Under the pieces are notes generated by a model. The model was not told where the DNA came from, searched no databases, and was given only the letters and a program-made list of their open reading frames with translations. 29,815 nt of DNA from Sutterella parvirubra YIT 11816 (GTDB lineage: Bacteria; Pseudomonadota; Gammaproteobacteria; Burkholderiales; Burkholderiaceae_F): contig NZ_JH604873.1 of NCBI RefSeq assembly GCF_000250875.1, forward strand, positions 1 to 29,815, in the 5' to 3' direction. Both the position numbers and the translations under genes were made by a program. Below are positions 4,884 to 25,125 of the stretch, piece by piece. Position 1 is the first letter of the stretch. The number at the start of each line of letters is the position of its first letter.

Positions 4884-5909
4884 TCAGGCGGCGGCGCGCC
4901 CGAGACGGTCGTTGACGGCGGCCCATTCAGGGGTCGCCGGGGGCGCCTCGACGAAGATGCGCGTGGCCCGGGCGTCGTCCAACGCGTGAAGATGATCGTA
5001 GAGCTCGGCGCCGTAGTGCAGGACGTCGGGCGAAGCTTCAATCGCGAGCGCGATGCGCTCGGGGGCGAGCGCCTCACGGATCCTCGCGAGCGTCGCGGCG
5101 GGCGCCATCAGGGCGACGGGACCGGCGTTTTCCGCCGTCCAGCGAAGCACCGTCTCGACGTACGCATCGGGCTGGGCGAGCTCCAGCTTCGTCTTCGGAG
5201 CGTAGTGGCTCTTCAAACGACCGGAGGCGCGGGGCGCGTCCTTCCCGGCGTCGGGAACGGGAACGCCCAGCGTTTCTTCGAGCATCGCGCGGGTGATGAC
5301 CCCGTGGCGGAGCACCTCGGGGCGGCCCGACGACAGGTTCACCATCGTCGACTCGATCCCGAATTCGCAGGGGCCGCCCTCCAGAATCATGTCGAGCTTC
5401 CCCTCGGGCTTCACGCCCAGATCCTGCGCGACGTGCCCGGCCGTCGACGGGCTGATGCGCCCGAACGTGTTGGCGGAGGGGGCGGTGAGGCCCTTCTTGG
5501 TCGGGCCCGAGAAGCGCTCCAAAAGCGCATGCGCGACGGGGTGCGAGGGGCAGCGGAGCGCCACCGTGTCCTGACCGCCCGTCACCCAGAGCCCGCAGCG
5601 GGGCTTCTTCTTCAGCACGATCGTGAGCGGCCCCGGCCAGTAGAGGCGCGCGAGCGTGCGGGCGGCTTCGGGCACGCCTTCCGCCCAGAAGTCGATCGCG
5701 TCGGCGTCGGCGACGTGCACGATGAGGGGATGGTCCGCGGGACGGCCCTTCGCCTTGTACGTGGCGAGCACGGCGTCGGCGTTGTCGGCGTCGGCGGCGA
5801 GCCCGTAGACCGTTTCGGTCGGGATGGCGACGAGACCGCCTTCTTCCAGAATGCGGGCGGCGCGTTCCACGGCGTCGAAGTCGATGTCGAAGTTGGGCGT
5901 TTCGGTCAT
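4884..5909 (-). CDS. tsaC: L-threonylcarbamoyladenylate synthase, long Sua5 type
   Basis: 341 residues. It makes threonylcarbamoyl-AMP from Thr, bicarbonate and ATP, the first step of t6A formation at position 37 of ANN-decoding tRNAs. The YrdC domain occupies about 12-205 and shows VAIPTETVYGLAADA, the KGRP loop, PSANTFGRISPS and FGIESTMVNLSSG. It is followed by SGRLKSHYAP (about 233-242), the linker that marks the Sua5 form, and a C-terminal Sua5 domain to about 335. This is longer than the roughly 190-residue YrdC form of E. coli. tsaE, whose product acts later in the same pathway, is at 11941-12432. No strong Shine-Dalgarno is seen before the ATG at 5909. Confidence 0.92.
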   Translation of the reverse strand: MTETPNFDIDFDAVERAARILEEGGLVAIPTETVYGLAADADNADAVLATYKAKGRPADHPLIVHVADADAIDFWAEGVPEAARTLARLYWPGPLTIVLKKKPRCGLWVTGGQDTVALRCPSHPVAHALLERFSGPTKKGLTAPSANTFGRISPSTAGHVAQDLGVKPEGKLDMILEGGPCEFGIESTMVNLSSGRPEVLRHGVITRAMLEETLGVPVPDAGKDAPRASGRLKSHYAPKTKLELAQPDAYVETVLRWTAENAGPVALMAPAATLARIREALAPERIALAIEASPDVLHYGAELYDHLHALDDARATRIFVEAPPATPEWAAVNDRLGRAAA

Positions 5910-15473: not shown

Positions 15474-16136
15474 TTAAAGAAGCGTGACGATTTCTTCCAT
15501 CGGAAGTCGCGATTTGGGACGCACGGCGTTCGCATCCGCCGGATCACCCACCCCGACCGCGAGCCCGACGACCACGTGACGGCCCTCCCGGGCGATGCCG
15601 AAGATCTCGTCGACCTGCTCGAACCAGAGGCCGCCCAAAACCGTCGTCTGCACGCCGATCTGCGCGGCGGCCATCAGGACGAAGCCGAGCGCGATGTGGA
15701 CCTGCTCGGACGCCCACCGCTCCGCGGCCGCCTGATCGCGGCAGTAGGCCTTCGCGGCCGTGCGGCGGAGCTGATCGATTTCGTCCGCCTTGGCGCCGGA
15801 GGGAAGACGCCCGTCCGCCACTTCCTGGGCGAAGAGCTTGTCGAGCCAGGCGTCTTCGCCGACGTTCTTTTCGATGGCGAGGAGGATCACCGCGTCGGCG
15901 TGCCGCACGCGCTCGATGTTGAAGTCCTTGACGGCGGGCATGAGCTTCGCGCGCGCTTCGGGACTCGCCACGACGTAGTGGTGCCAGGGTTGGATGTTGA
16001 CGGAGGAAGGCGCCAGACGGAGCACTTCAAGGAGCGCCTCCATCTGTTCGCGGGAGATGTGCTTCGCCGGGTCGTAGTGCTTCGTCGTGAAGCGGCGGCG
16101 GGCGGTTTCGAGAACCTGTCGAACGGCTTCGGTCAT
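15474..16136 (-). CDS. NfsB-like oxygen-insensitive NAD(P)H nitroreductase
   Basis: 220 residues, the usual size. It is an FMN-dependent cytoplasmic flavoprotein that reduces nitro compounds or quinones. FTTKHYDPAKHIS (about 16-28) and LRLAPSSVNIQPWHHYVV (about 39-56) are the FMN-binding opening of NfsB/NfnB. QVHIALGFVLMAAAQIGVQT and VGVGDPADANAVRPKSRLP match the C-terminal half. In this protein the PW of QPWHHYVV is intact, unlike the nitroreductase-like domain at 1437-2309. It sits 70 bases after the potE-like gene on the same strand. The physiological substrate is unknown. Confidence 0.88.
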   Translation of the reverse strand: MTEAVRQVLETARRRFTTKHYDPAKHISREQMEALLEVLRLAPSSVNIQPWHHYVVASPEARAKLMPAVKDFNIERVRHADAVILLAIEKNVGEDAWLDKLFAQEVADGRLPSGAKADEIDQLRRTAAKAYCRDQAAAERWASEQVHIALGFVLMAAAQIGVQTTVLGGLWFEQVDEIFGIAREGRHVVVGLAVGVGDPADANAVRPKSRLPMEEIVTLL

Positions 16137-16206
16137 GGGGGTACCTCTGCAAAAGGGGTTTTGTGTCGGACCATTCTATGACGAAGCCGGGGCCGATGGT
16201 TTCCGT

Positions 16207-17538
16207 CTAAGGTGAGGGCGGCGTGGGCGCGGCGGGCGGCGCGTTCACGTTGTTGCGCGCAACGAGCGCCGCGTAGATCGTCCAGCCGGAGAAGACCGCA
16301 AGCGTCGCCAGCTTCATCGTGAAGGCGTCCATCGTGAGGAGCACGTAGAAGACGTAGAGAAGCGCGACGGTCGTGTTGAAGACGATGAGGCGGGGCTGCC
16401 GGAGCTTCGCGTGGTCGAGCCGCACGAGAAGGTAGAGGGGCGCGATGCAGCTCACGTACGGGATGATGTTCGTGACGACGGAGAGGTCGACGAGGACGGA
16501 GAACTGTCCGAAGAGCGAGGGCGTCGCCGAGATCGCCACGAGGACGGTCTGCACGAGCGTGATCACGACCATCCCGGCGATCGGGACGTCCTTGCGGGTC
16601 ACCTTCCTGAAGATGCGCGGGAAGTAGCCGATGTCGGCCGAGGATTTCAGCACCCGCGAGAGCGTGAACTGCCAGGCCATCATCGAACCCGTGCAGGAGA
16701 GGCCCATCAGGATCGTCAGAACCTTGGCGGTCGTCCCGCCGAAGAGCGACGCAAAAACGATCCCAAATGGAGCCGAGGAATCCGCCAGCTCTGCGTTGGG
16801 CACCATGCCGCCCACGAGCACCGACGTCGCCACGAAGAAAAACGCGACGCCCACCGTCGCCAGAAGAACAGCTTTCGGAACATTTTTGTCAGGATTGTCG
16901 ACGGACTCGGAGTTGGCGCAGGCGCTCTCCAACCCGAGGAAGGACCAAAGAAGCATCGGAAGCGCGGCGTGCACGGCGTCTGCGACCGGCATCCCCGAGG
17001 GGTTCCAGTTCGCGGCGAAGAGCGCCGCGCTGAAGTGAAAGGGCCCCACCGCGAGGAAGATGAGAAGCGGGATGAGCACGCCCCAGAAGACCGCGGCCGA
17101 GAGCCGCCCCGTCACCTTGGGGCCGCCGAAGTTGGCGAGGGTCGAGAGCCAGAGGAGCGCCACCGTGATGAGGCCCGACGTCCAGGGCGAGAGCGCGAAG
17201 CCGAGGAAGTCGGTGAGGTAGCTCACCGAGGTGATCCCGATCGCCACGTTCGCGATGACGAGCGAGAGCCCGTAGGTGTAGTTCGTCATGAAGGAGCCCG
17301 AGCGCCCGAACGCGTACTCGGCGATGCCGCCCAGGCCCCCGCGGTGGCGCGAGAGCATCCCGCACTTCGCAAAGCAGTGGGAGAGCGCGAGCACGCCCGC
17401 GATCGTCACGCCCCAGGCGAGAAGCGAGATCATGCCGATCTTCGCCGTCTTGGCGGGGAGCATGATGATCCCGGAGCCGATCATGTTGAGGCCGGTGAGG
17501 AAGGTGAGCTGCGTGACGCTCATCTTGTTGCGGGGCAT
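16207..17538 (-). CDS. potE: PotE-type basic amino acid/polyamine antiporter (APC superfamily)
   Basis: 443 residues, about 12 membrane segments, inner membrane. The opening KMSVTQLTFLTGLNMIGSGI and MLPAKTAKIG, GGLGGIAEYAFGRSGSFMTN with YTYG after it, WAFLGLESACAN-like WSFLGLESACANSESVDNP, and TNIIPYVSC correspond closely to E. coli PotE, the putrescine/ornithine exchanger. GGAG lies 6 bases before the ATG at 17538. PotE normally pairs with ornithine decarboxylase SpeF. No speF is here; instead the gene follows lysS and cadBA, so it may exchange cadaverine, putrescine or lysine. A near-perfect 15-base-stem hairpin lies in the lysS-potE gap. Confidence 0.85.
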   Translation of the reverse strand: MPRNKMSVTQLTFLTGLNMIGSGIIMLPAKTAKIGMISLLAWGVTIAGVLALSHCFAKCGMLSRHRGGLGGIAEYAFGRSGSFMTNYTYGLSLVIANVAIGITSVSYLTDFLGFALSPWTSGLITVALLWLSTLANFGGPKVTGRLSAAVFWGVLIPLLIFLAVGPFHFSAALFAANWNPSGMPVADAVHAALPMLLWSFLGLESACANSESVDNPDKNVPKAVLLATVGVAFFFVATSVLVGGMVPNAELADSSAPFGIVFASLFGGTTAKVLTILMGLSCTGSMMAWQFTLSRVLKSSADIGYFPRIFRKVTRKDVPIAGMVVITLVQTVLVAISATPSLFGQFSVLVDLSVVTNIIPYVSCIAPLYLLVRLDHAKLRQPRLIVFNTTVALLYVFYVLLTMDAFTMKLATLAVFSGWTIYAALVARNNVNAPPAAPTPPSP

Positions 17539-17654: not shown

Positions 17655-19166
17655 CTACTTCCCTTCGGGGCGCATGTGCGGGAAGAGGAGCACGTCGCGG
17701 ATGGTCGGGGCGTCGGTGAGAAGCATCATGAAGCGGTCGATGCCCACGCCGCAGCCCGCGGTCGGCGCCAGCGCGTACTCAAGCGCCGCGATGTAGTCGG
17801 CGTCGTAGTACATCGCCTCGTCGTCGCCGTGGCTCTTCCTTTCAACCTGCGCGCGGAAGCGCTCGGCCTGATCGTCCGGGTCGTTCAGTTCCGAGAACCC
17901 GTTCGCCGTTTCGCGTCCCGCGATGAAGAGCTCGAACCGTTCGGTGACGTCGTGGTTTTCGTCCGAGGCGCGCGCCAGAGGCGAAATCTCCGTCGGGTAG
18001 TCGATGATGAAGGTGGGCTTGATGAGCTTCTTTTCCGTCGTTTCGTCAAAGAGCGTCATCTGGAGCGACCCCAACCCCGCGTCGATCGGGATATCGGCCT
18101 CAAGGCGTTCGAGCTCCGCGCGCAGGTACCCGACCGACGTGAGGTCCGCGTCGGCGTACTGCGGGTTGTACTTGCGGATGGCGTCGACGGGCGTCAACCG
18201 GTCGAAGGGCTCCGACAGGTCGATGGTCTCGCCCTGATAGTGGAGAACGGCCGAGCCCGTCGCCTCTTGGGCGACGTGACGAAGGAGCGCTTCGGTGAAG
18301 TCCATCTGGTCGCGGTACGTCCAGTAGGTCGCGTAGAACTCCATCATCGTGAATTCCGGGTTGTGACGCGCCGAGACGCCCTCGTTGCGGAAGTTGCGGT
18401 TGATTTCGAAGACGCGTTCGAACCCGCCCACCACGAGGCGCTTCAGGTAGAGCTCCGGCGCGATCCTCAGGTACATGTCCATGTCGAGCGCGTTGTGGTG
18501 CGTCACGAAGGGCTTTGCGTTGGCACCCCCGGGAATCGGGTGGAGCATCGGCGTTTCGACTTCGAGGAAGCGGTTCGCGATCATGAAGCCGCGGATCGCG
18601 GCGATCGCCTTCGAGCGGACGAGAAAGCGCGAGCGCGACTCCTCGTTCATGATGAGGTCGACGTAGCGCTGGCGGTAGCACATTTCGGTGTCGACCAACC
18701 CCTTGTGCTTGTCGGGGAGCGGCCGGATGCACTTCGCCATCAGGCGGATGTCGCGCACCGCGACCGCGAGGTCGCCCGCCTTCGTGCGAAAGAGCGTGCC
18801 GCGGGCGGCGACGACGTCGCCGAGGTCGAACTGCTTGAAGGCGGCGTAGGCCTCGGCCCCGACCGCGTCCTCCTGCACGAAGTACTGCATCGCGCCCGTG
18901 AAGTCGCGCACCGTCGCGAAGCTGGCGCGCCCCATGAGGCGCTTCAGCATCATGCGGCCGGCGACGGCCACTTCGGGGCGTTCGGCTTCGAGCTCTTCGG
19001 CGGTCTTGCCGCCGTACTGCGCCGTGAGGTCGCCGAAGAGGTCCTTGCGTTCGAAGTCGTTCGGGTAGGCGACGCCGGCCGCGCGGATTCTCTCCAGCTT
19101 CGCGCGTCTTTCCGCCACGATGGCGTTCTGGGCGGCGTCCTGAACTTGGGGTTCCATTTCCGTCAT
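17655..19166 (-). CDS. lysS: Lysyl-tRNA synthetase, class II
   Basis: 503 residues from ATG 19166, chosen for the AAGGAG 7 bases upstream; a longer in-frame extension to 19364 is proline/arginine-rich with no family similarity. It charges tRNA-Lys with lysine. The OB-fold anticodon-binding domain covers about 55-155 ([20 protein letters not shown]). Catalytic motif 1 surrounds [20 protein letters not shown], motif 2 is [20 protein letters not shown], and motif 3 is [14 protein letters not shown] near the C-terminus. It sits directly after the lysine decarboxylase gene cadA on the same strand and before potE, so lysine-charging and lysine-consuming genes are neighbours. Confidence 0.95.
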
Positions 19167-19281
19167 GTTCAACTCCTTCTGTTCGAGTGAGTGCGGGTCC
19201 CGGATGTGCGGAGAGCCCGGTCGGGAATCGGCCGAGCTGCGTGAGGGAGCCGTGAGGGGGAGCGAAGCGGAAGGGGCGCGA

Positions 19282-19306
19282 GCGCGCTCCGGCGGCGGGA
19301 GCGCGC
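19282..19306 (-). repeat. GC-rich hairpin in the cadA-lysS gap
   Basis: GCGCGCTCC (19282-19290) and GGAGCGCGC (19298-19306) form a perfect 9-base stem with a 7-base loop. The surrounding 260-base gap (19167-19426) holds no gene I can support and no clear promoter. With no T-run, the hairpin may separate cadA and lysS messages by processing rather than by termination. Confidence 0.45.
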
Positions 19307-19426
19307 GGGTGCGCGGCTCCTGGGCGGGAAGCGGGGTTCGAGTCCTTCCGCGTTCGTTCGGCATGGTCGGCTCCGGACGGGACGCGTCGCTCCGGGCCGG
19401 GAACCGGGGCGGCGCGCCCTTCAGGT

Positions 19427-21565
19427 TCAGCCCTGTCGGATCACCTTTACGGTGTAGCCGCCGTCGGGCTGACGGTAGGCGCCGTGGATGTCCGTTTCGA
19501 ACCCGGGGAAGTGCGCCCCGATTTCGCAGAGCATCAGGAGGAAGTCGAGCACCGGACGGCTTTCCTCCGTCAGCATCTCGCCGGGCATGACGAGCGGCAC
19601 GCCGGGCGGGTACGGGAGGATCATGTTGGCGTTGATCTTGCCGATCATCTCCTCGATGCGGACCTCTTCGACTTCGCCCACGAGCTCCTTCTGGAAGGCC
19701 GCATAGGGCGTCATCACCATGTCGGGGAGGACGTCGAAGGCCTTGAACATGAGCTCGGGCAGGTTGTGCTCGCGGATGAGCGCGTGAATGCCCTGGGCGA
19801 GTTCCTGAATGCGCATCCCTTCGTAGAAGGCGGGATTCGCGGCGTAGAGCGACGGGAGCGCGCGCTTCACTTCAAGGTTGCGGTCGTAGTCGCGGCGGAA
19901 GTCGCAGAGCGCACGCAGAAGCCCCATCGCCTTCGTGTTGTCGATCCCCATGCTGAAGAGGAAGAGCAGGTTGTAGGGACCGGTCTTCTCGACGATGATG
20001 CCGCGGTCGTCGAGGTACTTCGAGACGATCGAGGCGGGGATGCCGCGCTCGGAGAGCGTGCCGTCCTTGTTCATGCCCGGGGTGAGGAGCGTCACCTTGA
20101 TCGGGTCGAGGAACATGTGGTCGCCGTCGATGTTCTTGAAGCCGTGCCACGCGTCTTCGGGCTTCAACTCCCAGCAGGCCTTCTCGTCGATGTTTTCCGG
20201 CTGCCAGACGTCGAAGAACCAGGAGTCGGTTTCGGCGTGCAGGCGCTTCACTTCCTTGCGGAAGCGGATCGCGCGTTCGATCGACTCGTCGATGAGGCGT
20301 CGGCCCACGTTCCCGCGCATCATCGCGGCGGCGGTTTCCGTCGAGGCGACGATCGGGTACATCGGCGAGGTCGACGTGTGCATCATGAAGGCCTCGTTGA
20401 AGGTCGCTTCGTTGATCTCACCCTTGACGTGAATCATCGAGGCCTGCGAGAAGGCGGCGAGAAGCTTGTGCGTCGACTGCGTCTCGTAGATGACCTTGCC
20501 CGGGACGGCGTCGCCGGACATGCCGCACTTGCCCTTGTAGATCGGGCTGAAGTTCGTGTAGGGGACCCACGCGGAGTCGAAGTGGATCGACTTCACGTCG
20601 AGCGTGCGCTTGATGAAGTCCGTGTTGTAGAAGAGCCCGTCGTAGGTGGAGTTCGTGACGACGGCGTGCACCGGCCACGTGGCGTTGGGCGTCTTCTCGA
20701 CGCGGCCCGCGATCGTCTCCGGCATGAATTCCTTGCGGGGAATGCCGCCCAGGATCCCGTAGGCGTTGCGGGTCGGGCGCAGATAGATCGGCGTCACGTT
20801 GCTCATCATCATGAGGTGCGTGAGCGACTTGTGGCAGTTGCGGTCGATCATGATCGTGCTCCCGGACGGGGCCGAGTAGAGGCCGACGATCTTGTTCGCG
20901 GTCGAGGTGCCGTTCGTGACGATGTAGCTGCGTTCGGCGTTGAAGGTTTCCGCGATGAACTTTTCGGCTTCGGCGTGCGGACCCGAGTGGTCGAGAAGCG
21001 ACCCCAGCTCACCCACCGAGACCGAGATGTCCGACTTGAAGGTGTTCGCGCCGAAGAAGTCGTAGAAGATCGTGCCGATGGGGCTGCGCTGGAAGGCGGT
21101 GCCGCTCATGTGGCCCGGCGTGCAGAAGGTGTACTTCCCCTGGTCGACGAAGCGGAAGAGCGCGCGGGTCAAGGGCGGCGTGATCGCGTCGACGTACTCC
21201 TGGGTCTTCTGCGAGATCGTGAGCGCGATGTCCTCCGCGCAGGAGAGCCCGTACTCGAAGAATTCGACGTTGAACTTCAGGTCCTCCATCGAGGCGTCCG
21301 TCACGTCGTCGCTGTTCGAGAAGGCGTAGACGGGGAGGAAGTCGTTGAAGGCGTGGATGCGCTGGCAGAGGTCCTTCGGGCACGTGTCCCAGTCGATGAT
21401 CACGCCGCAGAGGCGGGCGTTGTTCTCGACGATGCGCATCAGGTCCTCGGCGTCGCTCGCGAAGACCACTTCGAAGCCGCGGCCTTTGAGCGCGTTGTTG
21501 AGGTCGTGGATCGGGGCGTCCTTGTAGTAGGCCCCGGCTTCAATCAGCTCGACGATGATGTTCAT
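19427..21565 (-). CDS. cadA: Inducible-type lysine decarboxylase
   Basis: 712 residues against 715 in E. coli CadA, with close similarity along the whole length as recalled. It is a PLP enzyme converting lysine to cadaverine and CO2, consuming a cytoplasmic proton in acid stress. An N-terminal wing domain (about 1-130, [14 protein letters not shown]) precedes the aminotransferase-fold core. Core motifs are [30 protein letters not shown] [32 protein letters not shown] and the PLP lysine in [16 protein letters not shown] (near residue 367). The C-terminal part includes [15 protein letters not shown]. Residue 97, an Arg contacting ppGpp in E. coli LdcI, is Lys here. GGAG lies 7 bases before the ATG. 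cadB ends 50 bases upstream. Confidence 0.96.
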
Positions 21566-21615: not shown

Positions 21616-22992
21616 TCAGTCGTCGGCGGAGGCGAGGGTGGGCTGCTGGCCGACGAGGCTCGCCTGAGCGCGCTCGGCGGCGTCGACGATCGCCTGGTGC
21701 GTCCCCTTCTTCCAGGAGTAGAACATCAGGATCACGAGGCTCACGACGAGGGTGGCGACGAGTTCGGTGTTGCCCGCCCCGGTGAAGGCGATGAAGCAGA
21801 AGGCGCAGCCGAAGACGCAGGCGACGACGCTCACGAGGTTGCGGGTGCTCGCGCCCTCGATGCGCAGCAGGTTGATGCAGGAGTAGAAGTACGGGAGCAT
21901 CGTGAGGAGAACCGCGATGCCGGTGAGCATCCCGAAGAGGTCGGAGGCCTTCCCGTCCGAGGACATCGAGTTGATGGCCGTGAGGACGAGCATGAGGATG
22001 GTCATCTTGACGGAGGCGAGGATGAGGCCCTTGCGCGGGATCCCGTTCTTGTCGAGTTCGCCGTAGATCTTCGGGAAGTTGCCGTCCTTGGCGGCGCGGG
22101 CGCCGGCCTGCGAGACGAGCATCATCCAGGAGCCGAGCGAGGTGAGGCAGGCGAGCGCGGTGAAGGCGGAGACGACGGGCGCGGCCCAGTCGCCCACCAT
22201 CGTCGAGGCGCTCACCGCGAAGGGCGCGCCCGAGGCGGCCATCACGTCCGCCGGGAACATGCCGGCGATCACCTGCGAGGCGAGGATGTAGACCGTACCC
22301 GCGAGGCACGTGCCCAGCATGGTGGCGAGCGGAACGGTGCGCTTCGGGTTGTCGACGAGACCCGTCGAGACGGCGGCCGATTCGATGCCAACGAAGGCCC
22401 AGAGGCAGAAGAGCACGCTCTTGATGACGGCGCTCACGTCGGTCGTGCCGGACGTGTTCCAGTTCTGGAGGTAGAGCTGCGGGTCGAACCAGAACCAGCC
22501 CGCAAAGGCCGTGCCCACGACGGGAATCAGCACCGCGATGAGGCCGAGCGTCGAGAGCTTGGCGACCCAGCTGCCGCCCAGCATGTTGATCAGCGTGAAG
22601 ATCCAGACGATGGCGATGCAGGTCAAGCCCGCGGCCACCGGGCTGTTGAGGATCGGGAAGAAGACGTAGAGGTACGAGACGGCGGTGATGCCGATCGCGA
22701 GGTTGCCGATCCAGTTGGCGTGGTAGTAGAGCACGCCCGTCTGGAAGCCGAAGACCTGGCTCACTTCGCCCGCGTAGGCGATCGGGCCGCCCTGCTGCGG
22801 GTTGACGGTCGCGAGACGCGCATAGACGTAGGCGAGCGAAAGGGCGCCGATGAGCGCGATGATCCACCCGAAGATGGCGATGGAGCCGAGCCCGGCCAGG
22901 TTGGCGGGCAGGAGGGCGATGCCGGAACCCATCATGTTCCCGGCGACGATGCCGGTACATGCGACGAGACCGATTTTCTTAGCTGATGACAT
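21616..22992 (-). CDS. cadB: Lysine/cadaverine antiporter
   Basis: 458 residues from ATG 22992, chosen because AAGGAA lies 7 bases upstream and the protein then opens MSSAKKIGLVACTGIVAGNM, nearly identical to E. coli CadB. It is an APC-superfamily inner-membrane exchanger that imports lysine and exports cadaverine, coupling to CadA for acid resistance. About 12 membrane segments are visible, as are GSGIALLPANLAGLGS, NPQQGGPIAYAGEVSQVFG, FQTGVLYYHANWIGNLAIG and LCLWAFVGIESAAVSTGLV. The stop is 50 bases before the cadA ATG, making a cadBA operon in the usual order. The leader contains a GGCCCGT/ACGGGCC hairpin (23008-23027) close to the ribosome binding site. Confidence 0.95.
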   Translation of the reverse strand: MSSAKKIGLVACTGIVAGNMMGSGIALLPANLAGLGSIAIFGWIIALIGALSLAYVYARLATVNPQQGGPIAYAGEVSQVFGFQTGVLYYHANWIGNLAIGITAVSYLYVFFPILNSPVAAGLTCIAIVWIFTLINMLGGSWVAKLSTLGLIAVLIPVVGTAFAGWFWFDPQLYLQNWNTSGTTDVSAVIKSVLFCLWAFVGIESAAVSTGLVDNPKRTVPLATMLGTCLAGTVYILASQVIAGMFPADVMAASGAPFAVSASTMVGDWAAPVVSAFTALACLTSLGSWMMLVSQAGARAAKDGNFPKIYGELDKNGIPRKGLILASVKMTILMLVLTAINSMSSDGKASDLFGMLTGIAVLLTMLPYFYSCINLLRIEGASTRNLVSVVACVFGCAFCFIAFTGAGNTELVATLVVSLVILMFYSWKKGTHQAIVDAAERAQASLVGQQPTLASADD

Positions 22993-23115
22993 TTTGCGTT
23001 TCCTTGGGGCCCGTCCGCTGACGGGCCGGTTGAAGAAGTCGCTCTTCATGGAGGGCCCGTTGCCGGGGCCGCCGTGATTTCGTCGATCAGCATGAACGTG
23101 TTGATTTTTAAAGAA

Positions 23116-23142
23116 ATCAGGGGGTCATCAGTTCGTCATTCG
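23116..23142. promoter_or_regulatory. 11-base direct repeats, cadB-proximal cluster
   Basis: ATCAG occurs at 23116-23120 and 23127-23131, exactly 11 bases apart, with a degenerate third unit ATTCG at 23138. A further isolated ATCAG lies at 23086-23090. The cluster is about 125 bases upstream of the cadB start codon, a plausible activator distance. It overlaps the end of the AT-rich TGATTT/AAATCA dyad. Confidence 0.55.
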
Positions 23143-23344
23143 TGATGCCGAAATGAGAAAAAGGGGACGTGAAGAGGTCCCTCCGGAAGAAGGAACGGGC
23201 GGTACGCCGGTCGCTCCGAGCGCCCCGGAAACGCGGGGGCCGGGTTCGGATGGGAGCTTCGCCCTCGGCGTGAAAAGGGGTGGGAAAAGGGGGGCGCCCG
23301 AAGGACAAACTGGTCGGGGGCCTTTGGAAACACGAGGGGCCGAT

Positions 23345-23371
23345 CTGATGACGCGCTGATCGGGTCCTGAT
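23345..23371. promoter_or_regulatory. 11-base direct repeats, XRE-promoter cluster
   Basis: CTGAT (complement of ATCAG) occurs at 23345, 23356 and 23367, three copies at exactly 11-base spacing. The cluster coincides with the -35 to -10 region of the predicted XRE promoter, so a bound protein would directly affect that promoter. Confidence 0.6.
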
Positions 23372-23376
23372 AAAAT
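23348..23376 (+). promoter_or_regulatory. Predicted promoter of the XRE gene
   Basis: ATGACG (23348-23353) and TAAAAT (23371-23376) are spaced by 17 bases, with 4/6 and 5/6 matches. Transcription would start near 23383, giving a leader of about 90 bases that includes the downstream ATCAG cluster. Confidence 0.5.
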
Positions 23377-23415
23377 GATGACGAACGTGAGAAATCGCTT
23401 CTCGCGCAAAGGAAG

Positions 23416-23468
23416 ATCGGAAAACCGTCTTCAAAAGATCAGGAAAATATCAGGAAAACATCAGGAGG
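23416..23468. promoter_or_regulatory. 11-base direct repeats overlapping the XRE ribosome binding site
   Basis: ATCAGGAAAAT, ATCAGGAAAAC and ATCAGGAGGA begin at 23438, 23449 and 23460, exact 11-base steps. A variant ATCGGAAAAC begins at 23416, which is two further steps upstream. The last copy contains the AGGAGG ribosome binding site of the XRE gene. Occupancy would block expression of that gene. Confidence 0.65.
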
Positions 23469-23472
23469 ACTT

Positions 23473-23664
23473 ATGAACGGCTCTAGACTTCAGCAGATCC
23501 GCGAAGCGCTCGGCCTCTCGCAGGACGAACTCGCCGACATCGTGCGCGTCTCCGCGCGTCTCGTGAACGCTTGGGAACACGGCGAACGCCCGATCCCCGC
23601 GGTCGTCGAACGGATGGTGACCCGCTTCGTCGCGCACGGCCTCGCCAACTTCGCCCCGAACTGA
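23473..23664 (+). CDS. Small XRE-family DNA-binding protein
   Basis: 63 residues, essentially one Cro/C1-type helix-turn-helix. RLQQIREALGLSQDELADIV covers helices 1-2 and RVSARLVNAWEHGERPIPAV the recognition helix and following turn. An AGGAGG ribosome binding site lies 4 bases before the ATG. It is divergent from cadBA and convergent with the CadC-like gene, and it ends before a bidirectional terminator. It is not an antitoxin of an obvious pair, since no toxin gene adjoins it. It is probably a cytoplasmic repressor or co-regulator acting on its own leader and on the shared cadBA control region; that role is inferred from position and from the repeat array. Confidence 0.75.
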   Translation: MNGSRLQQIREALGLSQDELADIVRVSARLVNAWEHGERPIPAVVERMVTRFVAHGLANFAPN

Positions 23665-23740
23665 CGAAGGGGGTTCCGCATGGGTAAAGATCGAAAAGCC
23701 CGAAAAGCCCGAAAGCCTCAGGCCGAGGCGTCCCGAAAAC

Positions 23741-23778
23741 AAAGGGGACCGGTTTCGAATGCCGGTCCCCTTTCTTTT
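23741..23778. terminator. Bidirectional terminator between the XRE and CadC-like genes
   Basis: AAAGGGGACCGG (23741-23752) pairs perfectly over 12 bases with CCGGTCCCCTTT (23762-23773), loop 9. T-rich runs follow on both strands (CTTTT on plus, GTTTTC on minus), so it serves both convergent genes. It starts 38 bases past the CadC-like stop codon, leaving no room for a lost C-terminal sensor domain. Confidence 0.85.
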
Positions 23779-23810
23779 CGGAGCGCCTCCTTCGGGCTCT
23801 TCCGCAGGCG

Positions 23811-24440
23811 TCAGTAGAGCGTCTTCTTGAAGCCGAGCGCGGATTCGTTCAGCCAAAGCCCCCGGGCGAAGCTCGCGAGGCGCGAGCCCACGCTCTCGTG
23901 CGCGTCGTCGGCAGCGGATGCCGAAGAGGCTGAGGTGGCTGCGGACGCCGGTGCGCCGGAGGTGTTCCGGTGGTTGAGGTCGCCGGGGTGCATGTCGGTG
24001 TGGGCGGTGGGGAGGTCGGCGGCCGCGGGAGCGGTCCGGAGGCCTGCGGCGGGCGTGGCGACTGCGGAGGGTGCTGAGGCGGGATCGGGTGCGGGTGGCG
24101 ACGTCTCTTCCGAGAGGATTTCGACGTCGGCCACGAGCCGGTAGCCGCGTTTGGGGATGGTCTGGATGTAGTTCGGGCAGTCGTTCGCGGGTCGGCCGTC
24201 GCGAAGCGCCTTCCGGAGCTCAAAGACGCTTTGGTTGATGGCCTGGTCCGTCACGAAGGCGCGGTGCCAAACCGATTCGACGAGCATTTCGCGGCTCACG
24301 ACCGAGCCGCGGTGCTCCACGAAGCATTTCAAAAGATCCGTCAGGCGGGGCGGCAGAGGGCACTCGCGGCCTTCTCTGCTGATGGAGTTGGCGGAAGCGT
24401 TGACCAACCATTCGCCGACGAAGAAGCGCGTGTCACACAT
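23811..24440 (-). CDS. CadC-type winged-helix regulator lacking membrane and sensor domains
   Basis: 209 residues from ATG 24440, with AAGGAA 8 bases upstream. Residues about 5-107 are an OmpR/PhoB-type winged helix closest to the cytoplasmic domain of CadC: FFVGEWLVNASANSISREGR, LPPRLTDLLKCFVEHRGSVV, SREMLVESVWHRAFVTDQAI, FELRKALRDG and YIQTIPKRGYRLV. E. coli CadC is 512 residues, with one membrane helix after about residue 158 and a periplasmic pH/cadaverine sensor. Here the winged helix leads into an Ala/Pro/Ser/Thr-rich stretch (113-180) and a short tail ending LNESALGFKKTLY. No hydrophobic segment is present. It is probably a soluble regulator of cadBA, which lies just beyond the XRE gene. 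It is intact rather than frameshifted, because a terminator follows directly. Confidence 0.85.
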   Translation of the reverse strand: MCDTRFFVGEWLVNASANSISREGRECPLPPRLTDLLKCFVEHRGSVVSREMLVESVWHRAFVTDQAINQSVFELRKALRDGRPANDCPNYIQTIPKRGYRLVADVEILSEETSPPAPDPASAPSAVATPAAGLRTAPAAADLPTAHTDMHPGDLNHRNTSGAPASAATSASSASAADDAHESVGSRLASFARGLWLNESALGFKKTLY

Positions 24441-24764: not shown

Positions 24765-25125
24765 TGGTGGAGGCGGCGGGAGTTGAACCCGCGTCCGGAA
24801 ACCTTTTTCTGTTGGTTCTACATGCGTAGCCGAAAGATTTGGGTCTTACCGCGCACCCTGCCGATCGGCGGGCCGGTGCGCAGCCAGCTATCTAAGTTTC
24901 GGACGTCCGGCGACAGCCAACGGACGACCTAGATCCTGTCAAATGATGCTGCCGTCAGTTGCCTGACCCGGCCCAGGACCGAACCGGTGCAGCATCCCGC
25001 CATTAAGCGGCGAGAGCGAAACGCTTGTTGTTGGCGTTTATTGGTTTGCAGCGGATTTACGAGGTGACTGCACCTCGGCATGCCCCACACAGCGTCCGCG
25101 TCCCCGTCGAAGCCAAGGCGCCCCC
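24765..25125 (-). ncRNA. ssrA: Transfer-messenger RNA (tmRNA), one-piece form
   Basis: About 361 bases. It rescues stalled ribosomes by acting first as alanyl-tRNA and then as mRNA for a degradation tag. The 5' end GGGGGCG pairs with CGCCTCC before the encoded ACCA, forming the acceptor stem. The 3' part carries a T arm GCGGGTTCAACTCCCGC and the 5' part the conserved GGCTTCGACGGGG. The tag frame at 25003-25035 reads ANNKRFALAA followed by TAA. The resume alanine codon is GCC, preceded by an A-rich AATAAAC. Betaproteobacterial tags I recall, such as ANDERFALAA, have acidic residues where this has Asn-Lys. The gene lies 21 bases after the gph stop codon, on the same strand. Confidence 0.96.

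Follow-up and report, generated by a model that had tools for sequence, protein, structure and literature searches.

Phased TGAT arrays between cadB and an XRE-type gene of Sutterella parvirubra are candidate binding sites of a soluble CadC-like protein

Genes around the cadB-XRE intergenic region

The window, by which we mean the whole stretch of 29,815 nucleotides from Sutterella parvirubra YIT 11816 analyzed here, contains on its minus strand a gene for a PotE-type putrescine-ornithine antiporter (16207..17538), recognized by NF007938 with 517.3 bits against a cut-off of 409. Next to it lie a lysyl-tRNA synthetase-like gene (17655..19364, minus strand), named by reading its translation and delimited as an open reading frame (ORF) whose true start is possibly internal, and the lysine decarboxylase-like gene cadA (19427..21565, minus strand), named from its position after cadB together with a reading of its translation, its start being placed by reading. 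The cadB gene itself (21616..22992, minus strand) encodes a cadaverine/lysine antiporter of 458 amino acids (NF007754, 785.9 bits against a cut-off of 585), with its nearest matches in Edwardsiella (78-79%) and matches at 73-76% in Sutterella. Divergent from cadB is the gene of an XRE-type HTH protein of 63 amino acids (23473..23664, plus strand), which scores above cut-off with both Pfam HTH_31 and HTH_3 and for which two protein clusters were found among 5.77 billion proteins. Beyond it, on the minus strand, is the gene of a soluble CadC-like regulator of 209 amino acids (23811..24440), consisting of a winged helix, a disordered linker and a conserved C-terminal tail, and this protein is the probable ligand of the repeat arrays described below. 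A tmRNA gene (tag ANNKRFALAA) at 24765-25125 adjoins the CadC-like gene.

Two small elements were noticed 3' of the XRE gene, namely a basic ORF with its start at 23680 (MGKDRKARKARK...) and a hairpin at 23741-23773. They resemble those of three similar cassettes spotted by eye in the related genome G001 (L098, ~1440-1800, 2000-2310 and 2520-2830), each of which comprises an element resembling GAGATCAGG-AGATCTCAAG, a small gene (that of XRE in the first cassette), a 14-codon basic ORF and a terminator-like hairpin.

Phased words between cadB and XRE

The region between cadB and XRE (22993-23472, 480 nt) contains nine copies of the word CTGAT or its complement ATCAG, which form five same-strand pairs at a lag of 11 bp. 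CTGAT reads on the plus strand at 23345, 23356 and 23367, and ATCAG, which is CTGAT on the minus strand, occurs at 23086, 23116, 23127, 23438, 23449 and 23460; all nine positions agree exactly with those listed in a preliminary description of this DNA. In 4000 dinucleotide shuffles of the region, the two words together were present on average about 0.56 times and at most 5 times, and a single CTGAT pair at lag 11 arose in one shuffle and more than one in none. When any 5-mer and any lag from 6 to 40 was admitted, five pairs were seen in 0 of the 4000 shuffles (the maximum of 4 was reached 7 times), which bears out the earlier contention that the clustering exceeds chance. Over the entire 29.8-kb window, all five CTGAT pairs at lag 11, and likewise all such TGAT pairs, are confined to 22993-23472.

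The words group into three candidate operator arrays. Array 1 (23438..23464, minus strand) comprises three ATCAG units phased at 11 bp at the XRE ribosome-binding site; its two 6-bp linkers differ in a single base, the 15-mer ATCAGGAAAATATCA occupies 23438-23452, and the array ends 8 bases 5' of the XRE ATG (23473), reaching into the Shine-Dalgarno sequence. Array 2 (23345..23379, plus strand) comprises three CTGAT units at 11 bp (23345-23371) and a fourth TGAT 8 bp further on. This additional TGAT (23376-23379), which is absent from the preliminary list, completes the pattern TGAT-N7-TGAT-N4-TGAT (23357-23379). The CTGAT triplet overlaps a predicted sigma-70-like promoter for XRE (23348..23376, plus strand; ATGACG-17-TAAAAT with TG before the -10), which is recognized by consensus match only and lies inside array 2, the -35 element beginning at 23348 and the -10 element ending at 23376; it is the one such promoter found within 22950-23820, as against a shuffle mean of 0.1. 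In array 3 (23116..23131, minus strand), a pair of ATCAG units spaced by 11 bp precedes the cadB ATG by 124-139 nt. The coordinates and the promoter scan thus place the three clusters where they had been described, over the predicted XRE promoter, at its ribosome-binding site and upstream of cadB. Arrays 2 and 3 have linkers that are in part GC-rich. The remaining ATCAG (23086..23090, minus strand), 94 nt upstream of cadB, is 30 bp from the unit at 23116 and off the 11-bp phase, and it may be a chance occurrence. A TGAT at 23102 stands head to head with the ATCA at 23116, and the region upstream of cadB may accordingly be a mixed site.

A soluble protein with a CadC-type DNA-binding domain

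The CadC-like protein matches the CadC profile NF007540 over positions 1-149 of 516 only, with 151.2 bits and therefore below the cut-off of 400. With 209 amino acids and a match that stops at position 149, it is devoid of a periplasmic sensor domain, and no transmembrane segment is apparent, the highest mean hydropathy over 19 residues being 0.65 as against 2.56 in a full-length relative from genome G031; the corresponding values for the soluble relatives of G059 and G002 are 0.57 and 0.69. A Pfam search found no receiver domain in the protein. Its best sequence match in the PDB is the DNA-binding domain of E. coli CadC (PDB identifier 5ju7) with 102.7 bits. The AlphaFold2 model is confident over approximately residues 1-110 (means of 81-96 for blocks of ten residues), the remainder being low-confidence coil, and the predicted winged helix spans about residues 5-109. 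Foldseek searches ranked 5ju7 first (50% identity) and ToxR second, and the PhoB-pho box complex (PDB identifier 1gxp) was also among the matches. The order of strands in the model, four N-terminal strands and a C-terminal one, agrees with the ToxR-like topology set out in PMC8517210. Profile, PDB, AlphaFold2 and Foldseek matches hence all support the earlier assignment of an OmpR/PhoB-type winged helix to this gene. The name CadC-like is apt for the DNA-binding domain, which is of the CadC type, but the protein is not CadC proper, as it has neither membrane segment nor sensor.

Across 13 aligned rows, including a 98% copy of the protein from the window, V-T-D-Q of the recognition helix and the Q that follows do not vary. 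Of the three residues that PMC5430869 describes as contacting bases in E. coli CadC, Gln70 and Lys95 are kept and His66 is replaced by Gln in 13 of 13 rows, a correspondence that takes the numbering of the 5ju7 chain to be shifted by 3 residues, upon which H, Q and K fall at positions 66, 70 and 95. In soluble CadC-like proteins a highly variable linker is followed by a conserved tail, WL[ND]xxxLGFKKxxY (codons 23811-23876 in the window); the G060 protein has no such tail and that of G059 has the variant WLDESTAGFKRTIY.

We searched 67 genomes of the family of S. wadsworthensis (the Sutterella family) for homologues of the three proteins. The CadC-like query gave 14 matches in 11 genomes at E <= 1e-10. 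Seven of these are short CadC-like genes, distributed over six of the 67 genomes (two in G001 and one each in G002, G054, G058, G059 and G060), with open frames of 173-261 amino acids and proteins of about 165-227 amino acids. The other seven include six in frames of 528-745 amino acids and one in a 156-amino-acid frame of G066; the last was considered as a soluble CadC-like protein and left out of the short group because it is a different winged helix, lacking both the VTDQ helix and the tail. In a sample of 399 genomes of the order, searched at E <= 1e-22, the sole matching genome besides G001 has a frame of 571 amino acids. XRE homologues were found at E <= 1e-8 in three of the 67 genomes (G001, G002 and G054) and, at the same threshold, not in G058 or G060. 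CadB homologues (E <= 1e-60) occur in five of the 67, at 63-77% identity in G001, G002 and G054 and at 34% in G008 and G065. None of the relatives examined has cadB and XRE in the divergent order of the window.

Recurrence of the phased word in related genomes

For the comparison with relatives, stretches L101-L107 were fetched and used together with L005, and regions beside CadC-like, cadB, speF or XRE genes, mostly non-coding by rough ORF calls, were chosen by hand. Fourteen such regions contain 10 TGAT pairs at lag 11 where 0.45 are expected, a number attained in 0 of 2000 shuffles; upon leaving out L107 (the XRE contig of G002) and L101 (G058), 5 pairs remain against 0.41 expected. A fifteenth region (L105 3069-3400, upstream of the second cadB of G001) was included after its pair had already been seen. 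In a scan of all 4-mers at lags of 5-40 over the 15 regions, with the window excluded, ATCA/TGAT at 11 ranks at the top with 11 pairs against 0.37 expected (z 13.0), followed by ATAT at 6 (z 7.1) and ATAT at 12 (z 6.1); the highest z of any word and lag over 150 shuffles was 6.7. The corresponding scan of 5-mers is led by TATCA at 11 (3 pairs, z 5.3), which is inside the shuffle range, and the constant part of the units is the four-base TGAT core only, with linkers that vary in most arrays. Throughout L101-L107, 11 of the 14 TGAT pairs at lag 11 fall inside 14 chosen regions, which amount to 6.5 of 121 kb, and the remaining three lie within ORFs. The pair is present in only 6 of the 15 relative regions.

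Two longer patterns were searched in whole genomes. The exact 15-mer ATCAGGAAAATATCA is present at three places in the 67 genomes, all of them at soluble-CadC loci: once between cadC and speF in G058, more than 300 nt upstream of speF, and twice in G002, at the XRE start and 135 bp upstream of it. The pattern TGAT-N7-TGAT-N4-TGAT is present at two places in 12 whole genomes (six with and six without a short CadC-like gene), both of which are CadC-like loci, viz., the G054 XRE leader and, in G060, the region between cadC and speF; a reversed control gave 0. Both patterns had been picked after being seen at these loci, and the test that they provide is thus one of absence elsewhere in the searched genomes and not one of discovery. 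Looser searches were discarded. The pattern TGATRTTTTYCTGATRTTTT with up to 3 mismatches gave 81 matches in 38 of the 67 genomes against 40 when read backwards and is mostly noise, its exact matches being only two, both in G002. When a 16-mer was allowed up to 2 mismatches, it matched 72 times, in 33 of the 67 genomes, against 18 times when read backwards, and most of the matches are weak; two matches have a single mismatch, and one of these (G026) is outside the known CadC-like loci.

The preliminary description had proposed a test of whether the spaced words are conserved in the cadB-XRE intergenic regions of relatives. With this gene order absent from the relatives examined, the comparison covered XRE leaders and other promoters, and conservation holds there in part. 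TGAT at 11 bp is found at promoters of relatives and in the XRE leaders of G002 and G054, where the arrays are near the start codon and point the same way as array 1. It does not extend to the XRE leader of G001, which has no TGAT pair at 11 bp and in which we discern by eye a degenerate ATCAGG/CTCAAG pair inside the palindrome GAGATC-N5-GATCTC, nor to the three closest cadB homologues (G001, G002 and G054), none of which has an upstream TGAT pair at lag 11. The second cadB gene of G001 has such a pair upstream and that of G054, on a stretch outside the 15 regions (L152), has none. G059 has a CadC-like gene and no array in its region. Eighty regions upstream of cadB (up to 450 nt, nearly all gammaproteobacterial, the Sutterella loci being L003 and L005) contain only four lag-11 pairs, at three loci. 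A repeat of ATCAG phased at 8 nt near the start of an ORF (L102 ~15841-16560; ISKSANQQ protein repeats) is unrelated to the 11-bp arrays.

Which protein binds the arrays

Based on these sequence comparisons and on the predicted structure, we hypothesize, with a probability of roughly 0.7, that the arrays are tandem head-to-tail PhoB-like binding sites of the adjacent soluble CadC-like winged-helix protein (23811-24440). The same word and spacing recurs at CadC-like loci in five related genomes; the CadC-like gene is adjacent to the arrays or one gene from them in the window, G002, G054, G058 and G060, and in G001 it belongs to the same gene cluster. At eight loci with other CadC-like or wHTH matches (2.1-3.4 kb each), a TGAT pair at lag 11 was found in 0 of 8.

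The arrays could instead serve the XRE protein as operators, for repression of its own gene and perhaps of cadB. Arrays 1 and 2 sit over the XRE promoter and start, and the XRE leaders of G002 and G054 likewise carry theirs by the start codon, oriented as array 1. Across relatives, however, the site does not follow the XRE gene. G058 and G060, in neither of which an XRE homologue was detected at E <= 1e-8, have arrays in the cadC-speF interval, and those of G001 are upstream of speF and of the second cadB, kilobases from its XRE gene, the leader of which has the palindrome noted above instead of a TGAT pair at 11 bp. Inverted repeats bound by dimers are the usual sites of XRE-type proteins. 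The arrays therefore appear to track the CadC-like gene rather than XRE, and because they occur in two genomes without a detected XRE homologue, we regard the CadC-like protein as the likelier ligand and XRE as an improbable one.

A slightly poorer prospect is that another response regulator of the OmpR/PhoB family binds the arrays and controls these acid and polyamine genes. Direct repeats of 11 bp are the site geometry of PhoB (PMC3978041), and further wHTH proteins are present in these genomes. Against such a regulator, the CadC-like gene is adjacent or one gene off in five of the six array-bearing genomes, the window counted, and shares a cluster with the arrays in the sixth, G001, and the exact 15-mer ATCAGGAAAATATCA is confined to soluble-CadC loci among the 67 genomes.

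Less probable again is an RNA element, in which the inverted, in-phase CTGAT and ATCAG clusters would fold the XRE leader into a hairpin of three steps and so conceal the ribosome-binding site. In the predicted fold the three CUGAU copies are all paired with the three AUCAG copies, at -44.0 kcal/mol (z -3.25; a stability reached by 0 of 200 shuffles). The XRE leader of G002 folds at -39.5 (z -2.29; reached by 2 of 200 shuffles), and in it an upstream UUGAU pairs with one unit of the array at the start codon. However, of 300 sequences in which the spacers were shuffled around unchanged words, 12 folded as well (mean -36.4), so the hairpin of the window largely results from having two arrays that are inverted and equally phased. 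Moreover, the two arrays of G002 run in the same direction and do not pair with each other, and the predicted promoter would start the RNA downstream of the CTGAT cluster.

We give still less credence to a neutral tandem duplication, a small minisatellite without function that would account at least for the near-perfect array 1. The units of that array are near-identical across the full 11 bp, but arrays 2 and 3 and most arrays of relatives repeat the TGAT core only, with differing linkers, which is the opposite of what a recent duplication would leave, and the word and lag recur at promoters that are not orthologous. Translation-level control by CsrA/RsmA through AUCAGGA repeats around the ribosome-binding site, suggested by three GGA motifs 5' of the XRE start codon, can be practically dismissed, given that CsrA (PF02599) was found in 0 of 6 related genomes by a search whose control was positive in E. 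coli, B. subtilis and T. maritima, and that the exact 15-mer in G058 is more than 300 nt upstream of speF.

If the CadC-like protein is the ligand, each TGAT unit would take one monomer, and the monomers would align along a single face of the helix, about one turn from each other. Occupancy of arrays 1 and 2, which cover the predicted promoter and the ribosome-binding site, would repress XRE, and occupancy of array 3, 124-139 nt before cadB, would activate cadBA. In relatives, binding about 155-350 nt upstream of speF would similarly activate that gene. Acid or lysine might be sensed in the absence of a periplasmic domain via a partner that acts on the conserved C-terminal tail, although this is a guess. 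A broader proposal, which we consider possible and on the whole rather doubtful, is that genomes of the Sutterella family harbor a small family of soluble CadC-like proteins that lost anchor and sensor and kept a conserved tail, bind co-operatively to 11-bp arrays that are head-to-tail and not head-to-head, run a polyamine/acid regulon of cadBA and speF-potE, repress a tiny XRE partner and delegate sensing to a protein that reads the tail.

Comparison with known regulators and their sites

The PhoB sites comprise two direct repeats of 11 bp according to PMC3978041, in agreement with the preliminary description, which had likened the tandem 11-base repeats to sites of this type. The arrays share with the pho box the direct repeats 11 bp apart and a winged-helix domain of the same superfamily on the side of the protein. 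They differ in that the core here is TGAT, with up to three units and a fourth at 8 bp, and in that no receiver domain was found in the CadC-like protein.

The model published for E. coli CadC places it on two TTAxxxxT sites that stand head to head in AT-rich DNA. Its contacts there are mostly non-specific, and its exact binding sites are stated to be unmapped (PMC5430869). The cadBA promoter is described as having two CadC-binding sites, each for one homodimer (PMC6320335). The units of the window run head-to-tail at 11 bp, unlike the head-to-head TTAxxxxT arrangement that PMC5430869 proposes for Cad1 and Cad2, and the 11-bp direct repeats do not conform to head-to-head AT-rich sites of the kind proposed for Cad1. 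The two systems have in common a CadC-type DNA-binding domain, the neighborhood of cadBA and a position upstream of it, and they differ in that the protein here is without membrane segment or periplasmic sensor. A direct-repeat element is reportedly recognized by ToxR at the toxT, ompU, ompT and ctxA promoters. ToxR, the second-best structural match to the CadC-like protein, offers a likeness in that a ToxR-like winged helix recognizes direct repeats, and a difference in that ToxR is anchored in the membrane.

Our searches of open-access papers on CadC brought up no report of this operator or of a soluble CadC-like family, although one may exist elsewhere. A crisp, repeated operator in one lineage provides a motif that can be tested with the DNA-binding domain of CadC, and tethered and untethered regulators with closely related domains form a natural contrast, in which one may ask whether loss of the anchor changes the site geometry that is required. 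The arrays also suggest how Sutterella-like gut bacteria may control the formation of cadaverine and putrescine. Lastly, the cadB promoters of Salmonella and Edwardsiella (L036 ~5807-5850, L001 ~5817-5852) have the words TGATATTT/TGATGTTTTTT head to head with AAAATATCA/AAACATCA, and these facing words are possibly the anchored-CadC counterpart of the same half-site.
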